From Citricoccus sp. SGAir0253 (lineage in GTDB: Bacteria > Actinomycetota > Actinomycetes > Actinomycetales > Micrococcaceae): 64,000 bases of DNA. The translations under genes and the position numbers were made by a program. The DNA is taken from NCBI RefSeq assembly GCF_005877055.1, contig NZ_CP039425.1, positions 62,001 through 126,000 of the forward strand, given 5' to 3'. The notes beneath the pieces were generated by a model, which searched no databases, was not told the origin of the DNA, and worked only from the letters and a program-made list of their open reading frames with translations. Positions 28,868 through 45,769 of the stretch are shown here, one piece after another. Numbering within the stretch: the stretch's first letter is position 1; the number at the start of each line of letters is the position of its first letter.

Positions 28868-30574
28868 TCAGAGCGTCGGTACGTTCGCCAGCAGGGCCCT
28901 CGTGTAGTCGTGCTGTGGGTTCTCAAGGACCTCGTCCGTGCTTCCGCATTCGACGATCTTCCCGTTCTGCAGGATCGCGATGCGTTGGGAGATATGGCGG
29001 GCGAGGGTGATGTTGTGCGTGACGAAAAGCATTGACATCCTCGTCTCGTGCTGCAGCGTGCGCAGCAGGTCGATGATGGACGCCTGGACGGAGACGTCCA
29101 GGGCAGAGGTGACCTCATCGCAGACCAGCAGGGACGGCGCGTTCACCAGTGCCCGGGCAATGGCGGCGCGCTGGCGCTCACCACCGCTGAGGTCGCCCGG
29201 TCGGCGATTCAGGTACCCGCTGCCGAGGCGGACTTGGTCGAGGGCCTCCAGTACCCGGTCGCGGCGTTCCTTCCGGTCCATCGTGCCGGACATCTGCAGC
29301 GGCACCTCGATCGATTCACCGATGGTGCGCCGGGGGTTCAGGGAGGAGAACGGGCTCTGGAAGACGTACTGGATCCGCTGGCGCTGTTCACCAGTGCGAG
29401 CCCGGGTCCCGGCGGCCAAGGTGTCGCCGGACAGTTGGATCTGGCCGGAGTAGTTGTCGTTGAGTCCGGCGACGCAGCGGGAGAGGGTGGTCTTGCCCGA
29501 GCCCGACTCGCCGAGCAGCATCATGGACTCGCCCTCGGCCAGCGTGAAGTCGATGCCGGCCAGGATCTGGTTGCTGCCGTAGGCCAGCTCGAGGCCGGAC
29601 ACCTCCAAGAGAGGTGCCGTCGATCGCGCCAGGCCGGCGGAGCGTGGTGCGCCGGCGGGCAGGGTGCCGGGTTGCGGTCCGGTCGTCTCGGAAGGGCGGT
29701 CCACGACTTGCTGTTCGCCCGTGATGGTGGGGGTGCGGCCGAGGCGGCGCCTGCCGGCGAGATCGGGCACGGAGTCCAGCAGCTTGCGAGTGTAGTGGTG
29801 CTGCGGCTGGTAGAGCACCTGTGCCGTCGGTCCCTGTTCGACGACCTCGCCGGAGAGCATGACGACCACCTCGTCGGCGATCTTGGCCACGACCGCTAGG
29901 TCATGGGTGATGTAGAGTCCCGCGACGTGGTGCCGTTCGGCCAGTTGGGCGATGGTCTGCAGGACCAGGGCCTGGGTGGTGACGTCGAGGCCGGTGGTGG
30001 GTTCATCCATGACGATCACGCGAGGCCGGCAGGCGAAGGCCATGGCGATGCCGACGCGCTGTTGCTGTCCCCCGGAGAGCTGGTGCGGGTAGCGACGTTG
30101 GTAGGCCTCGTCGTTGGCAAGGCCCACTTCGGCCAGGGCTTCGCTCACCCGCTCCCGGCGTTCCGCGACCGAGCCGCCATAGCCTTGGACCTGGAGCGTT
30201 TCGAGGATCTGCTCACCGATGTGCATCGCGGGGTTCAGGGAGAGCGCCGGGTCCTGCGGTACGTAGGAGATGACCCCGCCACGCAACTTTCGGCGTTGCC
30301 CCTCGGGCAGGGCCAGGATGTCGGACGTCGGACCGGGCCCGGAGATCCGGATCTCACCGCCGGTGTGCTTCAGGCCCCGCCTGAAGTGCCCCAGGCATGC
30401 CAGTCCGGCGGTGGTCTTGCCGGAACCCGACTCTCCCACGAGGGCCAGGATCTTTCCGGGGTGCAGCTCGAAAGAGACGCCATGGAGGATCTCCGCCCCG
30501 GCGGTCGTGGTAATCCGCAGTCCGGAGGTACGAAGGACGGCGGTCCTGATGGGGTCTTGGAGGGACGTGCTCAT
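28868..30574 (-). CDS. Fused ABC importer ATPase (DppD-DppF type)
   Basis: A 568-residue protein with two complete ABC ATPase halves, as in fused DppDF/YejF-like proteins. The first half has the P-loop GESGSGKTTAGLA, signature HQLSGGQQQRVGIAMA and Walker B VIVMDEPTTGLD. The second has GESGSGKTTLSRC, LSGGERQRAAIARALV and LLVCDEVTSALD. It powers uptake through the two permeases encoded just upstream. The ATG at 30574 overlaps the permease stop as ATGA; the open frame extends upstream but inside the permease gene. Dpp-type specificity is by family, and the context suggests quaternary ammonium compounds or their conjugates. Confidence 0.9.
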   Translation of the reverse strand: MSTSLQDPIRTAVLRTSGLRITTTAGAEILHGVSFELHPGKILALVGESGSGKTTAGLACLGHFRRGLKHTGGEIRISGPGPTSDILALPEGQRRKLRGGVISYVPQDPALSLNPAMHIGEQILETLQVQGYGGSVAERRERVSEALAEVGLANDEAYQRRYPHQLSGGQQQRVGIAMAFACRPRVIVMDEPTTGLDVTTQALVLQTIAQLAERHHVAGLYITHDLAVVAKIADEVVVMLSGEVVEQGPTAQVLYQPQHHYTRKLLDSVPDLAGRRRLGRTPTITGEQQVVDRPSETTGPQPGTLPAGAPRSAGLARSTAPLLEVSGLELAYGSNQILAGIDFTLAEGESMMLLGESGSGKTTLSRCVAGLNDNYSGQIQLSGDTLAAGTRARTGEQRQRIQYVFQSPFSSLNPRRTIGESIEVPLQMSGTMDRKERRDRVLEALDQVRLGSGYLNRRPGDLSGGERQRAAIARALVNAPSLLVCDEVTSALDVSVQASIIDLLRTLQHETRMSMLFVTHNITLARHISQRIAILQNGKIVECGSTDEVLENPQHDYTRALLANVPTL

Positions 30575-31458
30575 GCGCTGGCTCCCACGGTCGTGTTCGC
30601 CGCCGCGCGGGCGAGCGAATCGGTGATCAGGTTGATGCCCACGGTCAGGACGGCGATGGCCAGAACGGGCAGGATCACGCCCCAAGGCTGGATGACCAGC
30701 GCGATCCGGTTCTCGTTGATCATCAGCCCCCAGTCGGCGGTGGGCGGCTGCATGCCTAGGCCGAGGAAAGACAGGGACGCCACGGCACCGATGGAGTAGG
30801 TCATGCGCAGGCCCAGCTCGACCATCAATGGACCGGTGATGTTCGGCAGCACGTCCTGCACCAGAATCTTCCACCGCGGCACGGCGTACATCTCGGCCGC
30901 CCGGATGAAGTCCTCGGTGATGACGTCCACCGTGGCGGAGCGGGTCACCCGGGCGATCCGTGGTGCGTGGGTGATGCCGATCACGACCACCAGGACCCAG
31001 CCCTGCGGTCCCAGGACCGTGATGGCCAGCAACGCGAACACCAGCGAGGGCAACGCCAGCAGGACATCATTGCTGCGCATGATCACGCTGTCCACACGAC
31101 CGCCCTGGTATGCCGCGGTCATCCCCGCCAGCACACCGAGGACCATGCCCAGCAGTGTGGCCAAGGCGGAGTAGGCCAACAGGCGCAACCCGCCGTCGAG
31201 GAAGCGGCTGAGCACGTCCCGCCCGAGGTTGTCGGTGCCGAACAGCCCGTCGGGCTGGAACGGCCGACCGGTGAACTCGGTGCTGGTGACGCCGGTGACC
31301 AGCGGCATCAGCACTGGGCCCAGCAGGGCCAGGAGCACGACCGTCCCGGCCAGGCCGATACCGATCTTCGCCTGGCGCTGTGCCACCAGTCGGTGGAGCA
31401 GGCCGGGGGGTGCCTTGGTCTCCCGGGTGATGATCTGGGGCGAGTCGATAGCGGTCAT
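30571..31458 (-). CDS. ABC importer permease, DppC type
   Basis: A 295-residue inner-membrane permease with about six transmembrane segments. An N-terminal segment (IGIGLAGTVVLLALLGPVLMPLV) precedes the FGTDNLGRDVLSRFLDGGLR motif diagnostic of DppC/OppC. The EAA-loop region is RAAEMYAVPRWKILVQDVLPN. The start is the ATG of the ATGA overlap with the DppB-type gene. It pairs with that permease and the fused ATPase in a complete importer. Confidence 0.9.
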   Translation of the reverse strand: MTAIDSPQIITRETKAPPGLLHRLVAQRQAKIGIGLAGTVVLLALLGPVLMPLVTGVTSTEFTGRPFQPDGLFGTDNLGRDVLSRFLDGGLRLLAYSALATLLGMVLGVLAGMTAAYQGGRVDSVIMRSNDVLLALPSLVFALLAITVLGPQGWVLVVVIGITHAPRIARVTRSATVDVITEDFIRAAEMYAVPRWKILVQDVLPNITGPLMVELGLRMTYSIGAVASLSFLGLGMQPPTADWGLMINENRIALVIQPWGVILPVLAIAVLTVGINLITDSLARAAANTTVGASA

Positions 31459-32411
31459 CGGGCACCTCCGGTGCGCAACTTCGGATTGGTGACGATGCCG
31501 ACGACGTCGGCCAGCAGGTTCACCACGATGTAGACGGCGGCGATGAGGAGGGCGAGCACCTGGACCACCTGCACGTCCCGGTTCGTCACCGCGTCCACGA
31601 GGGCTTGGCCGATGCCGGGGTAGCGGAAGAGGAACTCGACGACGACCACGCCGCCGGCCATCCACGCCAGCTGGATGGCGACCACTTGGGCGACGGGGGA
31701 GAGGGCATGCGGCAGGGCGTGCTTGAGGATGACCTGCCGTTCAGGCACGCCCTTGAGCCGGGCCATCTCCACGTACCCGGACTCGAGGACCTCCAGCATC
31801 GTGGCCCGCATCATCCGGATGATGTACGGAGTGACCACGAGGACCAGGGTCAGCGTCGGCAGGATGAGCTGCAGCGGGTAGTTCCACACCGGCTCCCCCG
31901 GGGGGGCCATGGTGACCGAGGGCAGGAGGGTGAAGACGGTCGTCGAGAAGAGGGTGACCAGGGCGATGCCGATGACGAACTCCGGCAGGGCGGCCAACAC
32001 CAGGCTGGTACCCGTGGCGATGTGGTCGCCGGCCCGGCCTCGGCGCAGGGCGCTGTAGGTGCCCACCAGCAGGCCCACGGGGATGCTGATGATGCCGGCC
32101 GCGAGCAGCAGGACCAGGGAGGCCCCGATCCGCTCTCCCAGCAGGGCGCTGACCGGGCCGCCGGAGGCCGCGGAGACGCCGAGGTCCCCGGTGAGCAGGC
32201 CCCCCAGCCACATCAGGTAGCGCTGCCAGACGGGGTCGTTGAGGTTCATCTGCTCGCGGAGGGCGGCCAGCCGTTCCGGCGTGGCCTGCTGGCCCAGGAT
32301 GGCCTGTGCCGGATCGCCGGGCAGCAGCAGGGTGGCGACGAAGACCAGCACGGACACGGCCAGCAGGATCAGCACGCTGGTGGCGAGCCTGCGCAGGATG
32401 ATGGGCGTCAT
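31455..32411 (-). CDS. ABC importer permease, DppB type
   Basis: A 318-residue permease beginning MTPIILRRLATSVLILLAVSVLVFVATLLLPGDPA, the conserved N-terminal arrangement of DppB/OppB proteins. Further transmembrane segments follow, with the EAA-type loop EMARLKGVPERQVILKHALPHALSP. ATGA overlaps join it to the binding-protein gene before and the DppC-type gene after, so the importer genes form one translationally coupled unit. Confidence 0.9.
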   Translation of the reverse strand: MTPIILRRLATSVLILLAVSVLVFVATLLLPGDPAQAILGQQATPERLAALREQMNLNDPVWQRYLMWLGGLLTGDLGVSAASGGPVSALLGERIGASLVLLLAAGIISIPVGLLVGTYSALRRGRAGDHIATGTSLVLAALPEFVIGIALVTLFSTTVFTLLPSVTMAPPGEPVWNYPLQLILPTLTLVLVVTPYIIRMMRATMLEVLESGYVEMARLKGVPERQVILKHALPHALSPVAQVVAIQLAWMAGGVVVVEFLFRYPGIGQALVDAVTNRDVQVVQVLALLIAAVYIVVNLLADVVGIVTNPKLRTGGAR

Positions 32412-34015
32412 GATGCGACTCCTAGCCAGACGCGGCGGAATTCGAAGCCGGACAGGGCCAGCCCGGTGCGGCTGGGGACGAGCCCGGCCACATATTGCTG
32501 GTAGGCGTCCGCCTGGTTGGCGTGCCCCCAGATGATGTAGCCGCCCTCCTCGTACTCAATCTGCATGGCTTTGGCGATCAACGCGTTGCGCTCCTCTTCA
32601 TCCAGGGTCGCGGTCGCCTTCTTCACCAACGCGGTGAACTCGGGGTGGTCCCAGTGCGTCTCGTTGAACGGCGAGGTGGGCAGGGTGCTCGCGTTGACCT
32701 GCGGCAGGTAGTTGCGGGTGTAGTAGAAGTCTTGGGCGAAGTCCCACTGCAGGTAGCCGTCTCCGAAGAACGTGGTGGTGTCCACCTGCCGGATCTTGAC
32801 CGTGATCCCAGCGGCGGCTGCCTGCTGGGCGAAGACCTGTGCCGCCTCCACGGCCCCGGACTGGATCGGCGCGGTGACCAGTTCCACGGTGAGCCCGTCC
32901 GGGTAGCCGGCCGCGGCCAGCAGTTCCTTGGCCCGGGCGATGTCCTGCTCACGCTGGGGGAGGTGCTTGGGGTAGCCCGGGTCGAAGGGCGAGTACATGT
33001 CGTTGCCGAGGCTGCCGTTGCCACTGAGGACCTGCTCGATCATCTGCTCGCGGTCCACGACCAGACGGAAGGCCTGGCGGACGCGGTTGTCGTCGAACGG
33101 GGGTCGGTCCACGCGCATCGTGAACGGCATCCAGGCGCCGGTCTCCGCGTTGAGGATGCTGATGCGCGGGTCCGCATCGATGACCTCGAGCAGCGTCAAC
33201 GGGATCTGGCCGATGGCATCGACCTGGGTCGAGAGCAGCGCGTTGATCAGCGCGTCGTCGTCACTGAAATTCAGGATCTCGAGCTCGTCCAGGTACGGTT
33301 CGGCCTCGCGCCAGTAGCGGTCGTTGCGGACGAAGACGCTATTGCGTCCGGGAGCGAACGACCGGTACTTGAAGGGGCCGGTGCCGACCGGACGAGCCGG
33401 GTCGTAGTCGGCGGGCACGATGCCCAGGGTGTACTGCCCCAGGGAGTCGTCGAAGGTCGCGCTGGGACTGTTCAGCCGGAACTCCACCCGGTAGTCGTCC
33501 ACCACGGCCACCTCGTCCAGGATCGCCAGCGCGGCGGCGCCGCTCTTGGGATCGTCGGGGTTGGTGATCCGGGCGAAGCTGGCGGCGACGTCCTTGCCGG
33601 TCACGGGGCGGCCATCGTGGAACAGCACGTCGCGTCGCAGGTCCACGGTCCAGACCCGCGCGTCGTCCGAGGCTGTGACCTGGGCCGCCAGGAGCGGCTG
33701 CAGGTCGTAGTTCTCGTCCCGGTACAGCAGGGGCTCGTACAGGTTGATCACCCGCGCGATGTCGGTGGTGCTCACGGAGGAATGGGCATCCAGGCTGTCG
33801 GCTGCGCCGCCTCCTGCCAGACCCACCCGCAACCGGCCGCCACGCTGGGGCGCGCCGCCCGGGGCGGACAGCACCGCGGCGGGGCCGGCCCCGCATGCGG
33901 TCAGGAACCCGCCCAGCCCCAGGGCCAGGCCCATCCCGAGCACGTGGCGACGGGTCGGGGTCGCGGACGACGACCTGGCGGGAGGTTGTCCATGAAGAAC
34001 AGGAGACGTTTCCAC
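32408..34015 (-). CDS. ABC importer substrate-binding lipoprotein, DppA type
   Basis: A 535-residue SBP_bac_5 family protein. A twin-Arg-like start (TRRHVLGMGLALGLGGFLTAC) ends in a lipobox Cys near residue 41, so it should be lipid-anchored, possibly exported by Tat. Typical blocks are INLYEPLLYRDENYDLQPLLAAQVT, WTVDLRRDVLFHDGRPVTGKDVAASFARI and RQAFRLVVDREQMIEQVLSG. The GTG at 34015 has AGAAAGAAGGA just before it. It follows the thioesterase by 26 bases in the carnitine operon and probably binds carnitine conjugates or another betaine-like ligand rather than peptides, by context. Confidence 0.87.
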   Translation of the reverse strand: METSPVLHGQPPARSSSATPTRRHVLGMGLALGLGGFLTACGAGPAAVLSAPGGAPQRGGRLRVGLAGGGAADSLDAHSSVSTTDIARVINLYEPLLYRDENYDLQPLLAAQVTASDDARVWTVDLRRDVLFHDGRPVTGKDVAASFARITNPDDPKSGAAALAILDEVAVVDDYRVEFRLNSPSATFDDSLGQYTLGIVPADYDPARPVGTGPFKYRSFAPGRNSVFVRNDRYWREAEPYLDELEILNFSDDDALINALLSTQVDAIGQIPLTLLEVIDADPRISILNAETGAWMPFTMRVDRPPFDDNRVRQAFRLVVDREQMIEQVLSGNGSLGNDMYSPFDPGYPKHLPQREQDIARAKELLAAAGYPDGLTVELVTAPIQSGAVEAAQVFAQQAAAAGITVKIRQVDTTTFFGDGYLQWDFAQDFYYTRNYLPQVNASTLPTSPFNETHWDHPEFTALVKKATATLDEEERNALIAKAMQIEYEEGGYIIWGHANQADAYQQYVAGLVPSRTGLALSGFEFRRVWLGVAS

Positions 34016-34041: not shown

Positions 34042-34512
34042 CTAGGACCGGACGGCCCGGCCCGTCCAGTCCGGGGCCGGCTCGCCCGGACCCGGGATGA
34101 GCGACGTGATGGCGTCGACGACGGAAGGGGGGAACGGGGCGCTGCGCCCCGACTGCTGGTCAACGTGCAGTGCCAGCAGTTCCTCGGTGGAGATCAGCGT
34201 GTCGCCGGCGTGCATCTCGTGGGCCAGGTGCAGTTTCTTCGGCCCGGCGCCGACGAGGCGGGAGGTGATCGTGAGCTCGGTGTCGAGGCTGGTCTCGGCC
34301 AGGTAGCGGATGTGCGCCTCGACCGTGTAGAGCGAGTGCCCGGTGGATTGCCGGTACTCCTCGTCCAAGCCGATTTGGTCCATGACCTGGTCCGTGGCGT
34401 GGCCGAAGACCAGGACGTAGAAGGCCTCGGACATGTGGCCGTTGTAGTCGATCCACGCCGGCTGCACTCGGCACCGGTACTCGCGCAACGTCCCGGAGGC
34501 CAGGCCGCTCAT
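34042..34512 (-). CDS. Hotdog thioesterase (betainyl-CoA thioesterase-like)
   Basis: A 156-residue hotdog-fold protein of the 4-hydroxybenzoyl-CoA thioesterase type. The motif WIDYNGHMSEAFYVLVFGHATD contains the catalytic Asp/His region. In known aerobic carnitine catabolism, cleavage of dehydrocarnitine gives betainyl-CoA, which such a thioesterase hydrolyses to glycine betaine. The gene overlaps the carnitine dehydrogenase stop by ATGA, in the same order as in characterised carnitine loci. The assignment rests on this context. Confidence 0.82.
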   Translation of the reverse strand: MSGLASGTLREYRCRVQPAWIDYNGHMSEAFYVLVFGHATDQVMDQIGLDEEYRQSTGHSLYTVEAHIRYLAETSLDTELTITSRLVGAGPKKLHLAHEMHAGDTLISTEELLALHVDQQSGRSAPFPPSVVDAITSLIPGPGEPAPDWTGRAVRS

Positions 34513-35477
34513 GCGGTGCCACCCTTGACCTCGGCGATGGCGTTGCGGATGGCGATGATCGCCTCATCGCGCTCGGCCACGAGTTCGACGACGGACCGTC
34601 CGGCCGCCTCTTCATCACAGCCGGCAATGACCGCGTTGCGCAGTTCGGGTGTCAGCTCGGGGGCCTGCAGCCGGGTCCACGGGGACAGCAGGGAGGGTCC
34701 GAAGTGGTCGAGCATGTGGGCCATTCCGCCCTCGCCACCGGCGAGATGGAACGTCAGCATCGGTCCCTGCAGCGGCCAGCGCAGGCCCGGCCCGTCGGTG
34801 ATGGCCAGGTCGATCTGCTCCACCGTGGCCTCTCCGTTGTCCACCATGTGCAGCGCCTCACGCCACAGCGCCTCCTGCAGACGGTTGGCGATGAACCCCG
34901 GCACCTCACGGTCCATGGTGATGACGGACTTGCCGATCATCTCGTACCAGGCGGCGGCCCACCGCACGGCGGTCGCCGAGGTCTGCTCGCCGCCCACCAC
35001 CTCGACCAGCGGGATGAGGTACGGGGGATTGAACGGGTGCCCCACCACCAGGCGGGACGGGTTCCGTGCCTCGGTGGCCATCTCCGTCATGCCATACCCG
35101 GAGGTGGAGGAGGCGATGACGACGTCGGGATCCGTCACCGCGTCGACCTGGGCCAGGAGCGACCGCTTCAGTTCCAGGACCTCCGGGGCGCTCTCCTGCA
35201 CGAAGCCGGCACCAGTGACGGCCTCGGCGAGGTCGGTATGGACGGTGATGTTGTCCTTCGACGCGTTCGGGGCCAGGCCCAGCCGGGTCAGGGCCGGCCA
35301 CGCGGCGTCGATGAGCCGGCGAAGTCGGGGCTCGGCGTCCGGTGAGGGATCCCAGGCCTTCACGCGGTAGCCGCGGGCCAGGAAGTACGCCGCCCACCCC
35401 CCGCCGATGGTGCCGATGCCCACACAGGCGATCGTGTCGACGTCGTTGATGTCCCGCGGGGTGAAATCTTCGGTCAT
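34509..35477 (-). CDS. L-carnitine dehydrogenase
   Basis: A 322-residue NAD-dependent dehydrogenase of the 3-hydroxyacyl-CoA dehydrogenase family. The Rossmann motif IACVGIGTIGGGWAAYFLARGY lies at the N-terminus. SSTSGYGMTEMATEARNPSRLVVGHPFNPPYLIPLVEVV with its catalytic His and the EVPGFIANRLQEALWREALHMV block match carnitine 3-dehydrogenases. It would oxidise L-carnitine to 3-dehydrocarnitine. The ATG at 35477 is 2 bases from the BKACE stop. BKACE and thioesterase neighbours make the assignment strong, although other beta-hydroxy acid substrates remain possible. Confidence 0.88.
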   Translation of the reverse strand: MTEDFTPRDINDVDTIACVGIGTIGGGWAAYFLARGYRVKAWDPSPDAEPRLRRLIDAAWPALTRLGLAPNASKDNITVHTDLAEAVTGAGFVQESAPEVLELKRSLLAQVDAVTDPDVVIASSTSGYGMTEMATEARNPSRLVVGHPFNPPYLIPLVEVVGGEQTSATAVRWAAAWYEMIGKSVITMDREVPGFIANRLQEALWREALHMVDNGEATVEQIDLAITDGPGLRWPLQGPMLTFHLAGGEGGMAHMLDHFGPSLLSPWTRLQAPELTPELRNAVIAGCDEEAAGRSVVELVAERDEAIIAIRNAIAEVKGGTA

Positions 35478-35479
35478 GG

Positions 35480-36367
35480 TCAGGCCTTCTTCTCGAGCTG
35501 GAGGATGTCGCGGGCCTCGTCCGGAGTGGCGACGGAGGATCCCAGGTCGTGCACGATCTGGATGGCACGCTCGGTGAGCTGGGCGTTGGTCGCCTTGACG
35601 CCCTTGCTGAGGTAGAGGTTGTCCTCCAGGCCCACCCGGACGTGCCCGCCGAGCAACACCGACTGGGCCACCCACGGCAACTGGTTCCGGCCGATCGCAA
35701 AGGAGGTCCACTCGGCGCCCGCGGGCAGCATGTTGACCATGGCCTGCAACAGGCCCGCATCGACCGGGGCGCCATAGGGGATGCCCATGCACAGCTGATA
35801 GAGCGGGGGAGGAGCGATGAGGCGCTCCTCGACCATGATGTTCGCGAACCACAGGTTGCCGGTGTCGAAGATCTCCATCTCCGGCTTGACGCCAAGCTCC
35901 TTGATGCATGCGGCGCCCTCGCGCAACATGTCCGGAGTGCTGATGTAGACCTGGCTGCCCTCCCCGAAGTTCAAGGATCCGCAGTCGATGGTGCAGATCT
36001 CCGGGCGCAGCTCTTCCACGTGGACCAGCCGTTCCCGGGCGCTGACCAAGTCGGTCCCCGGCAGCTGGGCAGTGGGGTGGTCGGGATCCAGGACGAGGTC
36101 ACCGCCCATGCCCGCCGTGAGGTTGATGACCGGGTCCACGTCGCTCTCGCGGACCAGCCGGACCACGTCCCGGTACAGGGACACATCACGGGAGCCCTGG
36201 CCGCTGTGGATGTCGCGAACATGGATGTGGACCACGGAGGCGCCGGCGCGGGCGGCGGCAATCGCGTCGTCGGCTATCTGCTCCGGGGTGACCGGCACAT
36301 GCTCACTCTTGCTCGTGGTGTCTCCGGAGCCGGTGAGGGCACAGGTGACGATGACCTTGCGGTTCAT
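35480..36367 (-). CDS. BKACE (DUF849) dehydrocarnitine cleavage enzyme
   Basis: A 295-residue TIM-barrel zinc enzyme of the beta-keto acid cleavage family. Features are KVIVTCALTGSGDTTSKSEHVPVTPEQIADDAIAAA, the metal-binding SVVHIHVRD, INLTAGMGG, and GHVRVGLEDNLYLSKGVKATNAQLTERA near the C-terminus. BKACE enzymes swap the CoA of acetyl-CoA onto a cleaved beta-keto acid. With carnitine dehydrogenase the products would be acetoacetate and betainyl-CoA. The gene overlaps the regulator stop by ATGA and leads into the dehydrogenase. Confidence 0.9.
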   Translation of the reverse strand: MNRKVIVTCALTGSGDTTSKSEHVPVTPEQIADDAIAAARAGASVVHIHVRDIHSGQGSRDVSLYRDVVRLVRESDVDPVINLTAGMGGDLVLDPDHPTAQLPGTDLVSARERLVHVEELRPEICTIDCGSLNFGEGSQVYISTPDMLREGAACIKELGVKPEMEIFDTGNLWFANIMVEERLIAPPPLYQLCMGIPYGAPVDAGLLQAMVNMLPAGAEWTSFAIGRNQLPWVAQSVLLGGHVRVGLEDNLYLSKGVKATNAQLTERAIQIVHDLGSSVATPDEARDILQLEKKA

Positions 36368-37233
36368 GCAGCACTCCCTTGCGATAGGACGATGTGGCGG
36401 TCGATGTAGCTCTCGACCTGGTGGTGCATCTGATCGGAAGTCAGCAGGCCGGTCAGGACCTTGATGCCCAAGCCGTCGATCAAGCTGGTGAGCTCCATGG
36501 CGAGGTCTGCCGGGGATGCCGGTGCGAACCCGCTGGCCTCCTGGCACTGGCGGATCGCGTCCTCGACCGTCCGGAGCCAGCGGCCGTAGCCCTGAGCGTG
36601 GTTCTCCCTACCGGAGTCATCGACGGCGACGTCAGCCCAGGTCTGCAGCCAGATGGAGAACTCCGCCCGGCCGCGTTCACCGGCAGGCAGCTGCAGTTCG
36701 ACCAGGCGCCTGAGCCGGAGCACAGGGTCGGGGATGGAGTGCAGCTCGGCGATCTGGCGGTCGAAGGCGAGCTTGACCGAATAACGCAATGTCTCGGCGA
36801 AGATCTCGCGCTTACTCGGGAAGTAGTAATGGATCGCGGCGGTGCTCATGCCACAGGCGTAGGCGATGTCCGCGACGCGCACCGCTGAGTAGCCGCGGCG
36901 GGCGAACAGGCGCCATGCCGCCTCGATGATGGCCCGTCTCTTTTGCGCGTGTTCGTTGTTCTCCGGGTGACGCGTGGGCAGCACCATCGCCGGTGGGGGA
37001 ACCGACGGGCCCTCCGCCGCGTCAGAACCCGAAAGCAACCAATTAACGGTGACGCCAGTGACATCGGCCAAGGTGGTCAATTCCTCGGGATGGAAGCGGC
37101 GCGCCCCGTTCAGGGCCTTGGACAACTTCGTCTCGTCCAACCCCATGTGGCGGGCGACTTCGCGCTGTGCCATCCCCGAGTTGCGAATGGACGCCCGCAC
37201 CCGCTCTGTGATCTGCGTCTCATTGCTGGCCAT
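36364..37233 (-). CDS. XRE-TetR fusion regulator of the carnitine operon
   Basis: A 289-residue regulator with two DNA-binding modules. Residues about 8-68 form a Cro/C1-type helix-turn-helix (VRASIRNSGMAQREVARHMGLDETKLSKALNGARRFHPEELTTLADVTGV). Residues about 98-150 form a TetR helix-turn-helix (RAIIEAAWRLFARRGYSAVRVADIAYACGMSTAAIHYYFPSKREIFAETL). A ligand domain of about 130 residues follows. It is first in the operon it probably controls and overlaps the BKACE gene by ATGA. The promoter -10 box lies only 6 bases before the ATG, so the mRNA may be leaderless. The fused architecture is unusual for TetR proteins. Confidence 0.85.
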   Translation of the reverse strand: MASNETQITERVRASIRNSGMAQREVARHMGLDETKLSKALNGARRFHPEELTTLADVTGVTVNWLLSGSDAAEGPSVPPPAMVLPTRHPENNEHAQKRRAIIEAAWRLFARRGYSAVRVADIAYACGMSTAAIHYYFPSKREIFAETLRYSVKLAFDRQIAELHSIPDPVLRLRRLVELQLPAGERGRAEFSIWLQTWADVAVDDSGRENHAQGYGRWLRTVEDAIRQCQEASGFAPASPADLAMELTSLIDGLGIKVLTGLLTSDQMHHQVESYIDRHIVLSQGSAA

Positions 37234-37239
37234 GGGCCG

Positions 37240-37268
37240 AAACTATCCTGAGCTTGCGATTACGGCAA
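37240..37268 (-). promoter_or_regulatory. Candidate leaderless promoter of carnitine operon
   Basis: On the minus strand, TTGCCG (37263-37268) is followed after 17 bases by TAGTTT (37240-37245). The ATG of the regulator gene begins 6 bases after the -10 box, so transcription would start at or next to the start codon. No ribosome-binding site is visible, in keeping with a leaderless mRNA. Confidence 0.5.
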
Positions 37269-38244
37269 GGGGTGCTGGTGAAGAATCAGATGATTGCGAT
37301 GCGGTTCGGCTAAGTGCCACCGAGCATGACCGAGGGGACGGGGCTCTCGTCGAGCGCAAGAAGTTGGTCGTAGCTGCAGAAGTCATTGCCGATCCACGGA
37401 CTCTCGCCTCCAGGATCCGACGCCCCGCGGGTCGCTTGAAGCGGGAGTCGACGCTGTGCTTTCCCGGCGTCAGAATCACCGGGGGCATGCGTTCCCGCGG
37501 TGCGGCAACTGCCATAAATCAAGCGCCGATAAGTTACCTTATGTCAACTTGAGCATGGCATGTTCGCGGTATCTGCAAATTCGTCAGTGTGCACGACTCC
37601 CCGTGATGGCGGCCGTCCGGTCGGCTTTTGGAAGAGATCTCGGGCGTCCATGTCGGGGCGGTGTCCAGACGGTGGGCATCAAACCGGGATCTGACCTGAA
37701 GCTTGTACAAGTCTTGACCGGTATTCGCATGATGCACGAAGCGTTCGCACATTATGCGAACGACTCAGCCGTAGTCGGCGGCCCCTGACCAGCCCCACAA
37801 GCGGAAAACCAGCCAAATACGCCGGTCCTGAATACGCAAGGCCAGCACTTGACGATTCACCATGTGCAGTTCCCGCACATCGTGAGGATCCGGCTGACGC
37901 GATGGTCCCTTCCCTGAGTGAAGTCTGACCGGCACGTCTGTTGCCTCGCCGTCGGTCCGTGGAGGGCCGGGCAGGGTGACGGGGATCCGCCATGCACCAG
38001 TCCGGCCCAGGGCTCACCCGCGTGCTTTCGTGGCACACGATGCCAGCCGTACATCGCTTGACGTGCCGGCTTCCTCGGGCGTCACCGGTGGACGACAAGG
38101 CATGTCTGGCACCGGAGCTAGTGCCTCAGGACTTGCTACGCGGCCTGACGGCACTGCCGCAGGCACCAAGGTCACCGGGTTGGCGGTTCCGGTAGAGCGG
38201 TGGCGGCTGACCGGCGGGAAGCCACCTGCCGCCCTCGGCGGAGG
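37269..38244. other. Gene-poor region with a 21-bp palindrome
   Basis: Nearly 1 kb without a gene I can support; short open frames lack ribosome-binding sites and family motifs. The one notable element is CGTTCGCA-CATTA-TGCGAACG at 37742-37762, a palindrome with perfect 8-bp arms that looks like a repressor or recombinase site. The region separates the carnitine operon from the small secreted protein gene. Confidence 0.5.
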
Positions 38245-38529
38245 TCACCTGTAGCCGTAGACGATTCCGTAGGAGTAGCCGTAGGTGATCGTGCCGATGC
38301 TGGACACGTGCTTGCTGCGATAGCAGGGCTTGGAGTCGATGACCCAGGTGGTGGGACCGGCGTTGATCGAGGCCACCATGTTCTTCCGCGCCGTTTCGCA
38401 CGCCGAGTAGGTGTTGCCGCCGTAGTTGATGATTTTCCTGACGTAATAGGCCTCGGCGGGGGCTGCGGCGCCCGCCACCAATGCCCCGGCGAATGCCAGG
38501 GACGCGATCGTCCTCATAGTGCGCTTCAT
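38245..38529 (-). CDS. Small secreted protein
   Basis: A 94-residue precursor with a clear signal peptide (MKRTMRTIASLAFAGALVAGAAAPAEA) and a mature part of about 67 residues rich in Tyr and Gly with two cysteines (SACETARKN and SKPCYRSK) that could form a disulfide. GGGGAG precedes the ATG at 38529; an upstream in-frame ATG would place charged residues before the signal. No named family is recognised, although Cys-containing small secreted proteins of this type are common in actinobacteria. Confidence 0.7.
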   Translation of the reverse strand: MKRTMRTIASLAFAGALVAGAAAPAEAYYVRKIINYGGNTYSACETARKNMVASINAGPTTWVIDSKPCYRSKHVSSIGTITYGYSYGIVYGYR

Positions 38530-39601: not shown

Positions 39602-41074
39602 CTAGGCGGGCCGGCCATTGACCATCCGGGGCAAGCCCAGGGGGTTGTCATCGCGCAGGGCTTCGGGCAGCTGGTGCTGGGGGAACCCTTGGTAGGCCAC
39701 GGGCCGCAGCCAGCGATCGATGGCGGCGGTGCCCACGGAGGTCGAGCCGGCGGCGGTGGTCGCCGGGTAGGGGCCGCCGTGCTGCTGGGCGTAGGTGACG
39801 GAGACGCCGGTGGGCCACTGCCCCCACAGCACCCGGCCGGCCTTGCGCGCCAGGATCTCCACGAGGGCGGACACATCCTCGTCCGGATCGGCGAACACGG
39901 TGGCCGTGAGCTGGCCCTCAAAGGTCTCGGCCAGGGCCACGAGCTGGGATGCGTCCGTGTACTCGACCACGACGGCGGCCGGTCCAAAGCACTCCCGCTG
40001 CAGGGCCTGGGGGTCGGCGAGCATGGCCGCGGCGGTAGTGCGCAGTAGCGTCGGGCTGGGGGCCTCGGCCAGCGGATCCGATCCTTGGGCCAGGACCTGG
40101 ATGTCGGGATGGCTGTCGAGCTCGCCCAGCACCTCCTGGTATCCATCCACGATCCGGTCGTTGAGCAGCGGGGCTGCAGGGGCTAGCTCGGCATCGCGCA
40201 GCTGGTCGATGATGGCCGACCCGGCCGGAACGATGAGGGTGCCGGGCTTGGTGCAGAACTGGCCCGCCCCGGCCGTGAAGGAACCGAGGAAACCGTCCAC
40301 GATCGCCTGGTCCTGGGTGGCGGCAGCTTCGGGGGTGACGAACACGGGGTTGTTGCTGCCCAGCTCCCCGTAGAACGGGATCGGATCCGGGCGTGAGGTC
40401 GCCAGATCGAACAGGGCGCGGCCGCCGGGGATGGACCCGGTGAACCCACCGGCCTTGACCCGGTGGTCCTGGAGGGCGGCGGTGCCGGCTTCGCGGCCGA
40501 AGATCACGGCGAACAGTCCCTCCGGGGCGCCGGCGGCAGTCAGGGCCTCGGCGAGGACCTGGCCGGTCCGCCGGGAAAGTTCGGCGTGGCCTGGGTGGGC
40601 CTTGAGGATCACGGCGTTGCCGGCGGCCAGGGCCGAGGCAGTGTCACCTCCGGCCACGGAGAAGGCGAAGGGGAAGTTGCTGGCGGCAAAGACCACCACC
40701 GGGCCCAGGGCCTCTTTCCATCGGCGCAGGTCCGGCCGTGGGGCGCCCATCGGCCATTCCGCATTGGCCGGGTCGATGCGGACGTCGAGGTAGCCGCCGT
40801 CGCGCAGCACCTCGCCGAACAGCCGCAGCTGGAAGGTGGTGCGCTTGAGTTCCCCGCGCAACCGCGGCTCGGGCAGGTGGGTCTCGGCCATGGCCAGAGG
40901 CACCAGTTCGTCCGCCGCGGCGTCCAAGGCGGCCGCCGCGGCGTCGAGCACGGTGGCACGGATGGCCGGTCGGGTGTCCGCCCAGGCGTGCGAGGCCTGC
41001 TCGGCGCCGGCCAACACGGGCTCGAGCTCCTCCAGGGTGGTCGGCTGCGGGGCGGTCTTCAGGTCAGTGGTCAT
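39602..41074 (-). CDS. Alpha-ketoglutarate semialdehyde dehydrogenase
   Basis: A 490-residue aldehyde dehydrogenase of the ketoglutarate-semialdehyde type, the last step of hydroxyproline breakdown, giving 2-oxoglutarate. Motifs are VVVFAASNFPFAFSVAGGDTASALAAGNAVILKAHPGH for the cofactor, the catalytic Glu in FYGELGSNNP and the catalytic Cys in GAGQFCTKPG. The SNFPFAFSVAGGDTASAL block is typical of this subfamily rather than of betaine or succinate semialdehyde enzymes. AGGAG precedes the ATG at 41074. It ends the operon, 52 bases after the FAD/NAD oxidoreductase gene. Confidence 0.88.
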   Translation of the reverse strand: MTTDLKTAPQPTTLEELEPVLAGAEQASHAWADTRPAIRATVLDAAAAALDAAADELVPLAMAETHLPEPRLRGELKRTTFQLRLFGEVLRDGGYLDVRIDPANAEWPMGAPRPDLRRWKEALGPVVVFAASNFPFAFSVAGGDTASALAAGNAVILKAHPGHAELSRRTGQVLAEALTAAGAPEGLFAVIFGREAGTAALQDHRVKAGGFTGSIPGGRALFDLATSRPDPIPFYGELGSNNPVFVTPEAAATQDQAIVDGFLGSFTAGAGQFCTKPGTLIVPAGSAIIDQLRDAELAPAAPLLNDRIVDGYQEVLGELDSHPDIQVLAQGSDPLAEAPSPTLLRTTAAAMLADPQALQRECFGPAAVVVEYTDASQLVALAETFEGQLTATVFADPDEDVSALVEILARKAGRVLWGQWPTGVSVTYAQQHGGPYPATTAAGSTSVGTAAIDRWLRPVAYQGFPQHQLPEALRDDNPLGLPRMVNGRPA

Positions 41075-41126
41075 CGTGGATCTCCTGGTGGTACGGGGTG
41101 GTCGGTCCTCAAGGAGCGAGGAGGGG

Positions 41127-42575
41127 TCAGTCTGCGGTGTCCAGGGCGGCCAGGTCGGACAGGGCGACGGGGTGGGCGACGGGCCGCTTGGCCACCGAAC
41201 GCAGCGAGTCCTGCGTGGCCTGGGCGCCACTGGCGATGCAGGACGCGGCGAACCCGCAGACCCGGCCCTGGCACCAGCCCATGCCGGCGCGGGTCATGGA
41301 CTTCACGGTGCGGGCATCCTCGGCGCCCAGCTCGTCCCGGGCGGCGGTGATGTCCCCGGCGGTGACCTCTTCACACCGGCAGACGATGGTGTCCTCCTCT
41401 AACCAGTCCTGCCAGTGCTGGGGCACCGGGTGGGCGGTGTGCATGGCTTGGGCGAAGGCCCGGTGCGCTGTCACGGTCCGCCTGAGGCGGGCGCCGCCGT
41501 CGGACTCGGCGCCGGAGGCGGCGCGTCCGGCGATCTCGCCCTCGGCGACGGCCAGGACCGCTCCCCCGACGCCGGTCACCTCCCCGGCCAGGTACAGGCC
41601 CGGCACCGTGGACTGCTGGCGGTCGTCGACCACACAGACCAGTGAGCCGTCAGTGTCGATCCGGGTCTGGGCGCCCAGGGACACCGGCAGCTCCACCTGG
41701 GGGGTGAAGCCCCAGCCGAAGCCGACCGTGTCCACACCCTCGAGGGTTTGCTCGGTGCCGGGCACCGGCCGACCCTGGGCGTCGAGGCGGGCGAGTTGGA
41801 CGGCCTCGACGTGCTGGTCCCCCAGCACGGCGATGACACCGGTGCGCAGCCGGTACGGTATCCGGTTCCTCAGGAACAAGGCGGCGTACTCGGCACCCTC
41901 GAGCCCCTTGGCGGGCACCCGGGCAGCAGCGCCCAGCCCCGCGGCCCACCCGGTGAGGTTCGTGGACTCGCACACGGCCAGCACCCGACCCCCGGCCTGG
42001 ACCACGTTCGCCGCCACGGGCAGCAGGAACGGGCCGGTGCCGGCGATCACGACGTTCTTCCCGGGGGCCTGGTGGTTGGTCTTGATGAAGCCCTGGATGC
42101 CGCCGGCGGCCATGACGCCGGGCAGGTCCCAACCCGGTACCGGCAGCTGGCGGTCATAGCCACCGGCGGCGATGACGAGGCGGCGGGCCCGGACGGTGAG
42201 CCCGTCGCGGGCGTCGGTGTCGTGGCTCGGGGTGGTGCGCAGGATGAACCCGTCCTCGACGCGCTGGACCATCCAGACCTGCTGACCGGGACGGAACCCG
42301 ATCCGGCCTGCAGTGATGCCAGCGTCGAACCGACGGCGCAAGTCCTGGTAGGTGGCCCAGCCGTGGTGGCCGGTGCCGTCCTGTTCTGGGTGGACGTCCT
42401 CGGCGGCATGGCGCCAGAACTGCCCGCCGGGCTGGTCGTTGGCGTCCAAGCACACCACGGACGCCCCCGCCTCGGCCGCGGCGGTCGAGGCGGCCAGGCC
42501 AGCAGGCCCGGCTCCGATGACGGCCACATCGGCTATGGGCGCGACGGGGTCAGAGGATCCCGGGAGGGTGCTCAT
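41127..42575 (-). CDS. D-hydroxyproline dehydrogenase, FAD/NAD subunit (HcnB-like)
   Basis: A 482-residue flavoprotein resembling the HcnB/OoxA-type subunit of heteromeric D-hydroxyproline dehydrogenases. An N-terminal FAD site (VAVIGAGPAGLAASTAAAEAG), a second nucleotide-binding region (KNVVIAGTGPFLLPVAANVVQAGG) and a C-terminal BFD-like iron-sulfur region (DTIVCRCEEVTAGDI with GMGWCQGRVC) are present. It would pass electrons from the substrate-oxidising subunit onward. The ATG overlaps the ferredoxin-like gene by ATGA. Confidence 0.85.
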   Translation of the reverse strand: MSTLPGSSDPVAPIADVAVIGAGPAGLAASTAAAEAGASVVCLDANDQPGGQFWRHAAEDVHPEQDGTGHHGWATYQDLRRRFDAGITAGRIGFRPGQQVWMVQRVEDGFILRTTPSHDTDARDGLTVRARRLVIAAGGYDRQLPVPGWDLPGVMAAGGIQGFIKTNHQAPGKNVVIAGTGPFLLPVAANVVQAGGRVLAVCESTNLTGWAAGLGAAARVPAKGLEGAEYAALFLRNRIPYRLRTGVIAVLGDQHVEAVQLARLDAQGRPVPGTEQTLEGVDTVGFGWGFTPQVELPVSLGAQTRIDTDGSLVCVVDDRQQSTVPGLYLAGEVTGVGGAVLAVAEGEIAGRAASGAESDGGARLRRTVTAHRAFAQAMHTAHPVPQHWQDWLEEDTIVCRCEEVTAGDITAARDELGAEDARTVKSMTRAGMGWCQGRVCGFAASCIASGAQATQDSLRSVAKRPVAHPVALSDLAALDTAD

Positions 42576-42904
42576 GCGCTCTCACCGGCCTTTGCGGTCG
42601 GGGTATCGGGGCCGTCCTGGCCGGGGGCGCAGGTGGTGGGGGCAGTACCGTTGATGGCCATCCCCGGGCGCAGGGTGACCATGCAGGCGCGTTGGTTGGG
42701 GGCACCGTCGACCTCGACGAGACAGTCGAAGCAGACCCCGATCCCGCAGAACAGTCCGCGGGGCCGGTCATGGGCGCGCGTGCTGCGCCAGGACCGGATG
42801 CCGTTGGTGACCAGGGCGGCACCCACGGTCGAACCGGCGGCGGCGGTCAGGGCGGCGCCGTTGAAGGTGGCCGTGACCATGCCGGGGGGCTGGGGCTGGT
42901 CCAT
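42572..42904 (-). CDS. D-hydroxyproline dehydrogenase, 2Fe-2S subunit (HcnA-like)
   Basis: A 110-residue protein with a [2Fe-2S] plant-type ferredoxin fold. The cluster-binding cysteines lie in RGLFCGIGVCFDCLVEVDGAPNQRACMVTL. The TVGAALVTNGIRSWRSTRAHDRPRGLFCGIG segment is characteristic of HcnA-type small subunits. The ATG at 42904 overlaps the upstream oxidase stop as TGATG, and the stop overlaps the next subunit as ATGA, so the three subunits should be made in proportion. Confidence 0.87.
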   Translation of the reverse strand: MDQPQPPGMVTATFNGAALTAAAGSTVGAALVTNGIRSWRSTRAHDRPRGLFCGIGVCFDCLVEVDGAPNQRACMVTLRPGMAINGTAPTTCAPGQDGPDTPTAKAGESA

Positions 42905-44094
42905 CACTTCGCCTCCTCGAGGTGGACGGGGTGGGGAATGCTCTCGCCGAACCGGTGGGGAGCGAAGGCATCCAGGGACAGGTCCGGGTCCCGGCCGGCC
43001 AGGGCCTGGGCCATCAGCTTGCCGGTGCCCACGGACAGGCCGATGCCGGCTCCCTCGTGGCCGGCGGCGTGCCAGAGCCCGGGGGCCCGGTCGTCGTGGC
43101 CGATGACGGGCAGGTGGTCCGGGCAGTAGGGGCGGAAGCCGTGGTAGTGCCGCAGGACCTTGACCTCGCGCAGGAAGGGGAACAGCTCCATGGCGTTGCG
43201 GGCGATCGTGGACAGGGCCGGCAGGCTCACCGTGCGGTCGAAGCCGACGCGTTCGCGACTGGAGCCGATGAGGATGGTGCCCGCCGGGGTTCCCTCCACG
43301 ACGGGTGATCCCTGCAGTCCGGCATCGGAGCTGCCGACGTTGTCCACGTACTCGGCCGCGTACACCTTGTGGTGGACCATGGGCGGCAACGGCTCGGTGA
43401 CCATGACGAAGCCCCGGCGCGGCCGGACGGGTACGTCCACGCCGGCGTGGGCGGCCAGGTCGGCGGCCCAGGTGCCGGTGGCGTTGACCACGGCCGGGGC
43501 GTGGAACGTCCCGGCGACGGTGTGCACCCCGGTGACCTGGTCGCCGGCGCGCACGAACCCGGTGACCGGTGCCCCGGTGGTCACCTCGGCACCGTGGGCG
43601 CGGGCCATCCGCAGCAGGTGGGCGGCCACCAGCATGGGCTGGACCTGGCTGTCCTGCGGGTAGTACGCCGCGCCGAGGGCGTCCGGGGAGATGTTCGGCT
43701 CCAGGTCCCGCAGCTGGTCGATGGACAGGTCCTGGGCGTCGATGCCGAAGCCGCGCTGGGTGGCGGTCAGCCGGTTCAGGGAGGCCAGGCTGGAGGGCCG
43801 GGAGGCCACGATGATCCCGCCCTTGCTCTCGAACTCCCACAGTCCGGCGTGCTCGGCGAGGTCTTCCTTCCACACGCCCAGGGAGTACTTGGTGAGCTCG
43901 AGTTCGGGACCCAGTTCCTTGTCGGAGACGAGGATGTTGCCCTCGCAAGCCGAGGAGGTGCCGTTGGCCGGCAAGTCTCGCTCCACGACGGTGACCCGGA
44001 GCCCCTCGAGGGTGGCGAAGTAGGCGATGGCCGCGCCGATGACGCCGGCGCCGATCACCACGACGTCGCTGGTCGTACCCATGGTGCCGATCAC
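42904..44094 (-). CDS. D-hydroxyproline dehydrogenase, catalytic FAD subunit (HcnC-like)
   Basis: A 396-residue D-amino acid oxidase (DAO) family flavoprotein that would oxidise cis-4-hydroxy-D-proline to pyrroline-4-hydroxy-2-carboxylate. The N-terminal dinucleotide site is VVVIGAGVIGAAIAYFATLEGLRVTVVERD. The C-terminal HYHGFRPYCPDHLPVIG and HAAGHEGAGIGLSVGTGKLMAQALAG blocks are typical of the family. The product is the substrate of the DHDPS-type deaminase encoded upstream. The ATG at 44094 overlaps the GntR stop as ATGA. Confidence 0.87.
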   Translation of the reverse strand: MIGTMGTTSDVVVIGAGVIGAAIAYFATLEGLRVTVVERDLPANGTSSACEGNILVSDKELGPELELTKYSLGVWKEDLAEHAGLWEFESKGGIIVASRPSSLASLNRLTATQRGFGIDAQDLSIDQLRDLEPNISPDALGAAYYPQDSQVQPMLVAAHLLRMARAHGAEVTTGAPVTGFVRAGDQVTGVHTVAGTFHAPAVVNATGTWAADLAAHAGVDVPVRPRRGFVMVTEPLPPMVHHKVYAAEYVDNVGSSDAGLQGSPVVEGTPAGTILIGSSRERVGFDRTVSLPALSTIARNAMELFPFLREVKVLRHYHGFRPYCPDHLPVIGHDDRAPGLWHAAGHEGAGIGLSVGTGKLMAQALAGRDPDLSLDAFAPHRFGESIPHPVHLEEAK

Positions 44095-44813
44095 CGGTCC
44101 TTTCCGGGGTCGCAGGCGCCGGCCCAGATGCCCCGGGCGTGGCTGATGTGCCGGGCCATCAGCTCGCGGCAGCCGAGGGCGTCGCCGGAGCGCATCAGGT
44201 CCAGCAACTGGTGGTGTTCGCGGGCCGAGTCGGCCAGCTTGCCCTGGCGGACCAGGGCGTGCAGGCCGTACATGCGGGTGCGTCGGCGCAGGGAGGTCGA
44301 GAGCTCGGTGAGGTGGGCGTTACCCGCGTGGTCCAGGATCGCCGCGTGGAATTGGCGGTCGGCGGTGAGGAACCCGCTCAGGTCCTGGGCCTGGGCGGCG
44401 GCCAGGCACTGGTCTGCCAGCCGGTCCAGGACAACCAGACCGTCCACCGGCACGGAGCCGACCACGCTGGCCACAGTGGGCGGTTCCAGCAGCAGCCGGA
44501 TCTCGGTCAGCTCGTCCAGTTCCCGGTCCGTGACGGTGGTGACCCGAAAGCCCTTGTTCTTGACGGTCTCCACCAGCCCGTCGCGGGCCAGGTCCATCAT
44601 GGCCTCGCGCACCGGGGTCGCGGAGACACCGAGCTGTTGGCCCAGCGCCGGCGCGGACACCACCTGGCCCTCGGCGATCTCACCGGTGACGATGGCGGCG
44701 CGGAGCCGTTCCGTGACCGACTCGCGCAGGCTGGTGGAGCGGACCACCGGGTCGAAAGCGGCAGCGGTGGCCGTCCCGGGCGGGGACGCCGGCGCACCGG
44801 CAGTGAGGCTCAT
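44091..44813 (-). CDS. GntR/FadR-family regulator, operon-internal copy
   Basis: A 240-residue regulator. The winged helix covers residues about 25-90 (LRESVTERLRAAIVTGEIAEGQVVSAPALGQQLGVSATPVREAMMDLARDGLVE) and is followed by an FCD-type helical effector domain (HAAILDHAGNAHL with metal-binding His candidates). The ATG at 44813 overlaps the reductase stop and has AGGAG 8 bases before it; an ATG at 44822 is an alternative. It is a clear paralogue of the GntR protein at 49727, sharing SATPVREA, NKGFRV and ELDEL-EIR-LEPP blocks. Confidence 0.87.
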   Translation of the reverse strand: MSLTAGAPASPPGTATAAAFDPVVRSTSLRESVTERLRAAIVTGEIAEGQVVSAPALGQQLGVSATPVREAMMDLARDGLVETVKNKGFRVTTVTDRELDELTEIRLLLEPPTVASVVGSVPVDGLVVLDRLADQCLAAAQAQDLSGFLTADRQFHAAILDHAGNAHLTELSTSLRRRTRMYGLHALVRQGKLADSAREHHQLLDLMRSGDALGCRELMARHISHARGIWAGACDPGKDR

Positions 44814-45769
44814 GAGGTGCACTCCTCATACACGACGCCGGCCAGGGTCAGGTCCTCCCAGGACATGCCCACGCCCGTGAACAGGCAGCAGGTCTGCGGG
44901 GTCCGGCGCAGCCGGCCGCCCACGAGGTCCTTGAGGTTGGGCAGGTCCATCGCCTGCCATTCCTCGGTGCTGCGGGCCGGGATCAGGTCTCCGCTCTCAC
45001 GCCAGGACGAGGCACGTCCCTCCACGACGACATCGCTGCGCCGGACCAGGGTGGCATCAACCTCGCGAGCATCCAGCCCATGCTGGCCGACGGAGGCGAT
45101 GATGGCCCCGTCTCGGGGCAGGGACCCGTCGAACAGGGGCACCGGGGAGGTGCTCACGCACACGATGATGTCCGCTTCCCGGACCGCGGCACTGGGGTCC
45201 CCGGTCACCGGGGTGACTGGGATGCCCTCGGCGGCCAGGGTGGCCACGAGGTCGGCCAGGCGCTGCGGGTTGCGGCCGACGACCTGGACGGTGGCGTCCG
45301 GGAAGACCGCCCGGGCGGCTCGGACGTGGTTCAGGCCCTGCACGCCGGCGCCGAACACCAGGATGCGGGGGTCCGCGCCGAGGGCCTCCCCCTCTGGGGC
45401 GGCGGCGGCAATGTGCTTGACGGCAGTCAGGGTGGTCGCCGGGGTGCGGATGGCGGTGAGCGTGGCCCCCTCCATGGTGGCCAGCGGGGCCAGGGTGTCG
45501 GCGTCGAACAGGGCGTAGACACCCTGGATCTTGTCCAGCCCGCGGGCTGGGTTGCCCGGGGCGATGGTCGCCACCTTCACCCCGGTGTACCGGGATCCGC
45601 CCTCGGTGGGCATCAGCAGGAACTCGCCCTCGGGGGCCGGGCTGAACAGGCGCGGGCTGTCGCGTTCGGGATCCACTTCGCCCCGCAAGCCATCCTCCAG
45701 GGCCTGGATGGCACGCTCGAACGGCAGGACCCGGCGGATGGTGTCGGCGTCGAAGTAGGGCAGCGTCAC
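44810..45769 (-). CDS. Ornithine cyclodeaminase/mu-crystallin family reductase
   Basis: A 319-residue NAD(P)-dependent enzyme. The nucleotide site is RILVFGAGVQGLNHVRAARAVFPDATVQVVGRN, and GVKVATIAPGNPARGLDKIQGVYALFDADTLAPLATMEGATLTAIRTPA carries the substrate region. In hydroxyproline clusters such genes usually encode pyrroline-2-carboxylate reductase, which makes L-proline from trans-3-hydroxyproline or D-proline products. The GTG at 45769 overlaps the epimerase stop as GTGA, which is preferred to an ATG at 45835 within that gene. Confidence 0.82.
   Translation of the reverse strand: MTLPYFDADTIRRVLPFERAIQALEDGLRGEVDPERDSPRLFSPAPEGEFLLMPTEGGSRYTGVKVATIAPGNPARGLDKIQGVYALFDADTLAPLATMEGATLTAIRTPATTLTAVKHIAAAAPEGEALGADPRILVFGAGVQGLNHVRAARAVFPDATVQVVGRNPQRLADLVATLAAEGIPVTPVTGDPSAAVREADIIVCVSTSPVPLFDGSLPRDGAIIASVGQHGLDAREVDATLVRRSDVVVEGRASSWRESGDLIPARSTEEWQAMDLPNLKDLVGGRLRRTPQTCCLFTGVGMSWEDLTLAGVVYEECTS

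Follow-up and report, generated by a model that had tools for sequence, protein, structure and literature searches.

The minus-strand gene at 36364-37233 of the 64,000-nucleotide stretch of Citricoccus DNA analysed here (the window) encodes a 289-residue regulator, taken from its ATG in the list of open reading frames and its translation, which is a real and conserved two-headed variant of the TetR family. This two-headed architecture, an XRE (Cro/C1) helix-turn-helix joined to a TetR protein, is unusual for that family. The regulator probably works as a dimer that represses the carnitine-catabolism operon it belongs to, and a ligand would release it. Comparison at the sequence level supports this reading through the domains, their conservation, the promoter boxes, the leaderless layout and the linkage to the operon, and from these we infer the assignment of boxes to heads, repression, dimerisation and the class of ligand. 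The genes and promoter elements described below for the window lie on the same strand.

Domain architecture and structural relatives

The first-pass annotation described an XRE-like helix-turn-helix ahead of a complete TetR protein, and this is borne out by three Pfam domains that all score above their curated cut-offs: HTH_31 at residues 14-62 (37048-37194; 40 bits, cut-off 27), TetR_N, the TetR-family helix-turn-helix, at residues 102-147 (36793-36930; 63.7 bits, cut-off 24) and the BetI-type ligand and dimerisation domain TetR_C_6 at residues 173-281 (36391-36717; 80.3 bits, cut-off 27). HTH_3 also matches the XRE part (residues 19-66, 23.5 bits, cut-off 23). The two halves are connected by a linker (residues 72-92, 36958-37020) that is likely flexible, with pLDDT below 50 in the full-length AlphaFold2 model. 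The best NCBIfam match of the regulator is the BetI equivalog TIGR03384, with 66.8 bits, below its cut-off of 201.3.

Structure prediction of the N-terminus agrees with the XRE assignment. In the best AlphaFold2 model, residues 1-76 are predicted to form the five helices of an XRE fold (2-19, 23-30, 34-41, 49-59 and 63-68) with a mean pLDDT of 79.3, the other four models reaching 53-64. The best PDB matches of this model in Foldseek are the DNA-binding domains of SinR, P22 c2 and 434 repressor, with TM scores of 0.65-0.75 by query and E values of about 1.5e-3 to 3e-3, none being below 1e-3. The full-length model (mean pLDDT 69.9, the other four 53-58) matches 4jnn and 4ich with E values of 2.7e-10 to 9.7e-10. 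The closest solved sequence is 4ich, a putative TetR family regulator from Saccharomonospora viridis, which aligns to residues 4-282 of the window protein, XRE part included (E 3.2e-73). However, its modelled chains hold 193 of 311 residues, approximately the length of the TetR-only sister entries in the Foldseek listing; judging from this chain length, the XRE head of 4ich seems to be unmodelled. Sister PDB entries carry ligand names in their titles: choline for 4kwa, benzamidine for 4jnn and an N,N-dimethylmet... compound for 4nel.

Among known systems, BetI, the choline-responsive TetR repressor described by TIGR03384, shares TetR_N and the BetI-type TetR_C_6 with the regulator, which differs in having an additional XRE head and a BKACE (beta-keto acid cleavage enzyme) operon in place of choline genes. 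BetI belongs to a quaternary-amine pathway. The XRE repressors SinR, P22 c2 and 434 share the five-helix fold and a short palindromic operator (predicted for the regulator), whereas the regulator has a TetR protein behind its XRE domain, where those repressors have their usual C-terminal part. Mce3R (9b7y), which we take to be a double-TetR protein, likewise carries two DNA-binding units on one chain; however, these are of the same kind, while the heads of the regulator belong to two unlike helix-turn-helix families. No paper on an XRE-TetR fusion, on a regulator of a BKACE operon or on 4ich was among the matches listed in literature searches, which covered titles and the beginnings of abstracts, with most subscription journals outside coverage; the accessible part of PMC12565409 gave no matches to fusion, carnitine or TTGC.

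Distribution of the fusion and its genomic context

The fusion is present beyond the Citricoccus genome of the window, and its architecture is already found in the PDB deposit 4ich. A pattern-based scan of 84,980 species genomes retrieved 15 relatives (L008-L022) in Arthrobacter, Pseudarthrobacter and Cryobacterium. Searches of whole genomes (E 1e-35), in which only some candidates were scored per genome so that all counts are lower bounds, gave matches in at least 24 of the 394 genomes from the class (19 of them fusions, including that of the window, and five TetR-only proteins), at least 22 of 297 genomes of the order (the window's own included) and at least 16 of 150 genomes of family f24. 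We regard f24 as Pseudonocardiaceae-like and a further family, f26, as Streptomyces-like. The fusion is conserved, with 64 other fusion loci available for comparison. The resulting sample comprises 65 fusion loci, or 43 non-redundant ones once proteins at least 85% identical were removed; two duplicates, L023 (the same place in the sequence as L017) and L024 (the window's own locus), were removed, alignment A2 omits L020, and L022, whose reading frame is broken, was excluded from the protein alignments and the tree and retained in the DNA counts. In L022 (Pseudarthrobacter sp. Fe7) the regulator frame is disrupted after about 200 codons and the promoter boxes are kept.

In the window the regulator is followed by genes for a BKACE (35480-36367), the start of which overlaps the regulator stop codon (ATGA), a 3HCDH-family protein, likely carnitine dehydrogenase (34509-35477), a 4HBT_2 thioesterase, likely betainyl-CoA thioesterase (34042-34512), an SBP_bac_5 solute-binding protein (SBP; 32408-34015) and a permease, all classified by Pfam; the functions of the dehydrogenase and the thioesterase, as well as the proposed role of the operon in carnitine catabolism, come from family knowledge. 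The regulator had been placed in this operon from the outset, and the linkage is backed by a BKACE gene within the fetched stretch of 62 of the 64 other fusion loci, the exceptions being L048 (dehydrogenase only) and L078 (SBP only). The transporter of the operon (28868-34015) is a peptide-type ABC system, with SBP_bac_5 and permease recognised by Pfam and the ATPases by eye, and not of the BCCT or OpuC type. Further away, minus-strand genes at 39602-46767 have, by eye from their translations, the look of a hydroxyproline-type catabolic cluster, with aldehyde dehydrogenase, FAD/NAD oxidoreductases, a GntR regulator and ornithine-cyclodeaminase-like and proline-racemase-like proteins.

Five relatives that lack the XRE domain, from three families, constitute the whole XRE-less comparison set. 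BKACE, dehydrogenase, thioesterase and SBP genes are absent in all five within about 1.5 kb on either side. In the tree of the TetR part these five rows sit on long branches next to the Streptomyces-like fusions (86/75 support), and they may either have lost the XRE domain or never had it, the latter implying a late gain in the fusions.

Leaderless promoter

Reading and alignment of the region ahead of the regulator identify a -35 element TTGCCG (37263-37268), 17 bp before a -10 element TAGTTT (37240-37245) whose last base is 6 nt from the ATG. Speaking against this promoter, a simple scan for sigma-70 promoters across 36350-38300 came up empty, because these hexamers match the sigma-70 consensus poorly. 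The leaderless start proposed from the single sequence is supported by comparison: of the 65 fusion loci, 61 (39 of the 43 non-redundant ones) have TANNNT at a distance of 4-9 nt upstream of an in-frame start codon that itself precedes the XRE domain. The same spacing is seen for 5 of 918 start-like codons within these genes. The four loci without it are L022, L058, L059 and L078, and of these L022 has TANNNT in the aligned DNA. Words resembling a Shine-Dalgarno sequence were found in three of the 61 TANNNT loci, the window included, and lie at or just before the -10. That translation might begin downstream of the XRE domain, an option which would have undone the two-headed reading, is disfavoured, since TANNNT precedes the starts that lie ahead of that domain.

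In nine aligned Arthrobacter-type promoters the invariant positions are a distal TCGCAA, a proximal TTGC and TCGCAA, the TA..T of the -10 and the ATG, besides a few single columns, three of which fall at the position of the TetR word described below. In the long gap before the regulator lies an inverted repeat with 7-bp arms, GTTCGCAcattaTGCGAAC (37743-37761), immediately preceded by the related TTCGCATGATGCACGAA (37724-37740); the GTTCGCAcattaTGCGAAC repeat is perhaps the operator of some other regulator.

Two candidate operator words

The commonest 6-mer upstream of the regulator genes is TCGCAA/TTGCGA, present in 35 of 43 loci and in 2 of 43 in a coding stretch, and it forms a palindrome, TTGCGATNATCGCAA, at the -35 region. 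With the Streptomyces-like rows tallied separately, this palindrome scores at least 11 of 14 in 30 of 37 non-redundant loci (the other seven below 11), a level reached by 1 of 148 coding windows and by 0.68% of shuffles; since both consensus boxes come from these very promoters, finding them there is partly circular. Of the 29 loci listed, 24 have a box starting 35-38 nt ahead of the start codon, and no box was found within the fetched stretch of L058 and L059. In the window, box scoring, genome scan and alignment place it at 37254-37268 as TTGCCGTAATCGCAA, which has 12 of 14 positions of TTGCGATNATCGCAA and overlaps the -35; the corresponding window pattern, TTGCNNTNATCGCAA, has a single 0-mismatch site in the 3.56 Mb genome, that being the window's box. 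A distal half-site, TCGCAA (37294-37299), lies 25 bp before the proximal TTGC. In 22 of 65 loci, the window among them, a TCGCAA-like half-site precedes the proximal TTGC or TTGT by 24-27 bp, the pair bracketing the TetR position, compared with none of 350 control windows. In L014-L020 (Arthrobacter H14/castelli-type and Cryobacterium-type) an additional ATCGCAA half-site overlaps the first codons of the regulator gene.

The palindrome is missing from all five XRE-less relatives, in which the best score within -200 to +10 is 8-9 of 14, one relative reaching 10 further out; for this reason we assign it to the XRE head, of which TTGCGATNATCGCAA is the predicted operator. The XRE helix of seven Streptomyces-like loci terminates in KLSR, compared with KLSK elsewhere, and the best matches there reach 10-12 of 14 to TTGAGATNATCTCAA and likewise 10-12 to the general box TTGCGATNATCGCAA; by eye the left arm is TTGAG or TTGCG and the right arm mostly CTCAA. 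The coincidence of KLSR with a lean towards TTGAG..CTCAA would lend weak support to reading of the box by the XRE head, since it comes from one clade with overlapping scores and only two positions distinguish the consensuses.

The second word, TGACT(n)AGTCA, is present with at most one mismatch and a gap of 0-11 bp in 20 of 43 non-redundant fusions and absent in 23 of 43; the controls gave it in 105 of 2150 shuffles and in 4 of 129 coding windows. Gaps of 8 and 4 occur most often, followed by 3 and 0. Boxes of this type are common to four of the five XRE-less relatives: L042 carries TGACTGATGCATCAGTCA, as Streptomyces-like fusions do, and L043, L044 and L046 carry TGACGCGTCAGTCA, while L045 has the box in a 2-mismatch form only. 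Because it is kept where the XRE domain is missing, the word is assigned to the TetR head as its predicted operator. An extended TetR pattern with one mismatch is present in 10 of 14 genomes, all matches listed being at the regulator locus. The window contains no TetR box at up to two mismatches; the corresponding position in the alignment, CTGATTCTTCACCAG (37275-37289), lies between the XRE half-sites and is degenerate, so that the case in the window is carried mainly by the XRE word, and the box is clear in the relatives L008-L010. The opposite assignment, with the TetR head on TTGCGA and the XRE head on TGACT, was ruled out by the TGAC-type boxes kept in four of the five XRE-less relatives and by the absence of TTGCGA from all five.

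Use of the two words at different promoters

On balance we lean towards a family of regulators that reads two words with two unlike heads, separately or together: both of them at the regulator's promoter, the TetR word accompanied by XRE half-sites beside a divergent BCCT gene, and the XRE word by itself at a distant ABC transporter gene. In 13 of the 18 non-redundant fusions with a TetR box, an XRE half-site (TTGCG or CGCAA) lies within 13 bp of it, on both sides in six, compared with none of four XRE-less relatives and 2.9% of random positions. The words adjoin each other in Arthrobacter-type loci and in some others from the same order; elsewhere they are wider apart. The first-pass annotation had suggested that two heads could bind composite operators or bridge two sites. 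Two distinct words are supported; bridging is not, as the helical phasing of XRE and TetR boxes is insignificant (n = 9 mid-range distances, p = 0.18 at 10.5 bp) and unstable over periods (p = 0.037 with two adjacent loci added and 0.053 with two further mid-range loci). Four loci, namely L025, L029 and L030 from one genus of f24 and L048 from another genus, have a divergent open reading frame whose start is 235-300 bp away from that of the regulator; Pfam identifies the one in L029 as a BCCT transporter, and the other three look alike by sequence. In these loci the TetR word lies on the side of the divergent gene, at -179 to -191, and the XRE word at the -35 of the regulator.

Among the 150 genomes of f24, 16 carry the fusion, and 13 of these contain TTGCGATWATCGC, as do 9 of the 134 non-carriers (Fisher p 1.3e-10), the carrier count being partly circular. 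Nine carriers from four genera have a further XRE box away from the regulator, and in eight of them it precedes a homologue (47-55% identity) of the SBP gene of the window; in the ninth (G488) the distant site is 272 bp from the end of the fetched contig. None of the nine XRE sites of non-carriers precedes an SBP homologue (8/9 versus 0/9, p 4e-4). The link was first noticed in four of the nine carriers; among the five added afterwards, four agree with it and the fifth, G488, allows no judgement. Of the tests of the XRE word, those on the SBP sites and on the counts in non-carriers are the least affected by circularity. The box lies about 240-290 bp before the SBP gene if the N-terminus is as long as in the window, nearer with longer reading frames, and is away from any recognised -35, so its role there may differ. 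No TetR word was seen between -400 and +300 around the four SBP sites checked. In L098-L101, where the XRE box stands at distant SBP genes, a stretch like GCATCAATTGGATCACGA recurs, by eye, about 80-100 bp ahead of the box. The looser pattern TTGCGATNNTCGC gives 37 sites in 16 genomes; of the eight examined, one is at the regulator, four precede SBP genes and three (L103-L105) are without genes of the operon. A look for distant targets in eight genomes (seven Streptomyces-like, one XRE-less) returned two sites off the regulator, one of them inside an open reading frame and both by unrelated-looking genes.

Proposed mechanism and alternative explanations

We propose that the N-terminal XRE domains bind TTGCGATNATCGCAA, the left arm of which covers the -35 of the leaderless promoter, together with nearby half-sites, and that the TetR domains, which would dimerise the protein, read TGACT(n3, n4 or n8)AGTCA, often near XRE half-sites. 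The TetR part may sense a trimethylammonium compound of the pathway, in line with the choline and N,N-dimethylmet... compounds named for its PDB relatives 4kwa and 4nel. With the ligand absent both heads would occupy the promoter and the operon would be off; with the ligand bound the TetR part would be freed, avidity would drop and the operon would be expressed. It is highly improbable that the XRE domain is a structural leftover and that the TetR part does all the DNA reading, the TTGCGA box included. TetR proteins can bind DNA alone, and the 193 of 311 residues modelled in 4ich might mean that the XRE part is loose or cleaved; however, Q23, R24, D33-K39 (DETKLSK), G43 and R45-F47 of this part are invariant in a 15-row alignment, and the TTGCGA box is absent in all five XRE-less relatives, four of which retain a TGAC-type palindrome. 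The KLSR helix and the TTGAG..CTCAA-leaning box of the seven Streptomyces-like loci point the same way, with the reservation that they represent one clade and that the consensuses discriminate weakly.

The overlap of the left arm of the palindrome with the -35 could also mean that TTGCGA is a promoter element, or the site of another regulator, which stands at these genes by chance. This is very unlikely given that the right arm and the distal half-site, which are not promoter elements, are invariant in the nine aligned promoters, that the window pattern with its one 0-mismatch site in the genome speaks against a global regulator, and that TTGCGATWATCGC follows the fusion among f24 genomes, subject to the circularity of the carrier count mentioned above. 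An activator, or a dual regulator that turns the transporter gene on from the XRE box upstream of it, would account for the boxes at SBP genes lying well upstream of the inferred start and off any recognised -35. This too is unlikely, as the box at the regulator's own gene covers the -35 region, in the usual position of a repressor operator, and as BetI-type TetR proteins are mostly repressors. The regulator is thus best regarded as a probable repressor of its own operon.

Significance

TetR regulators form a very large bacterial family that is widely built into sensors, and they are usually treated as one head with one operator. The domain fusion itself is already deposited as 4ich, and the new element here is the two operator words. 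A natural two-headed TetR protein with both words predicted would lend itself to studying what an additional DNA-binding domain does to specificity. If the family does read the words separately as well as together, they would let one sensor impose different control at different promoters. For the use of carnitine by soil actinobacteria, the analysis provides a predicted operator, target genes and a ligand class, and marks an ABC transporter of the peptide class (SBP_bac_5) as a likely carnitine importer.
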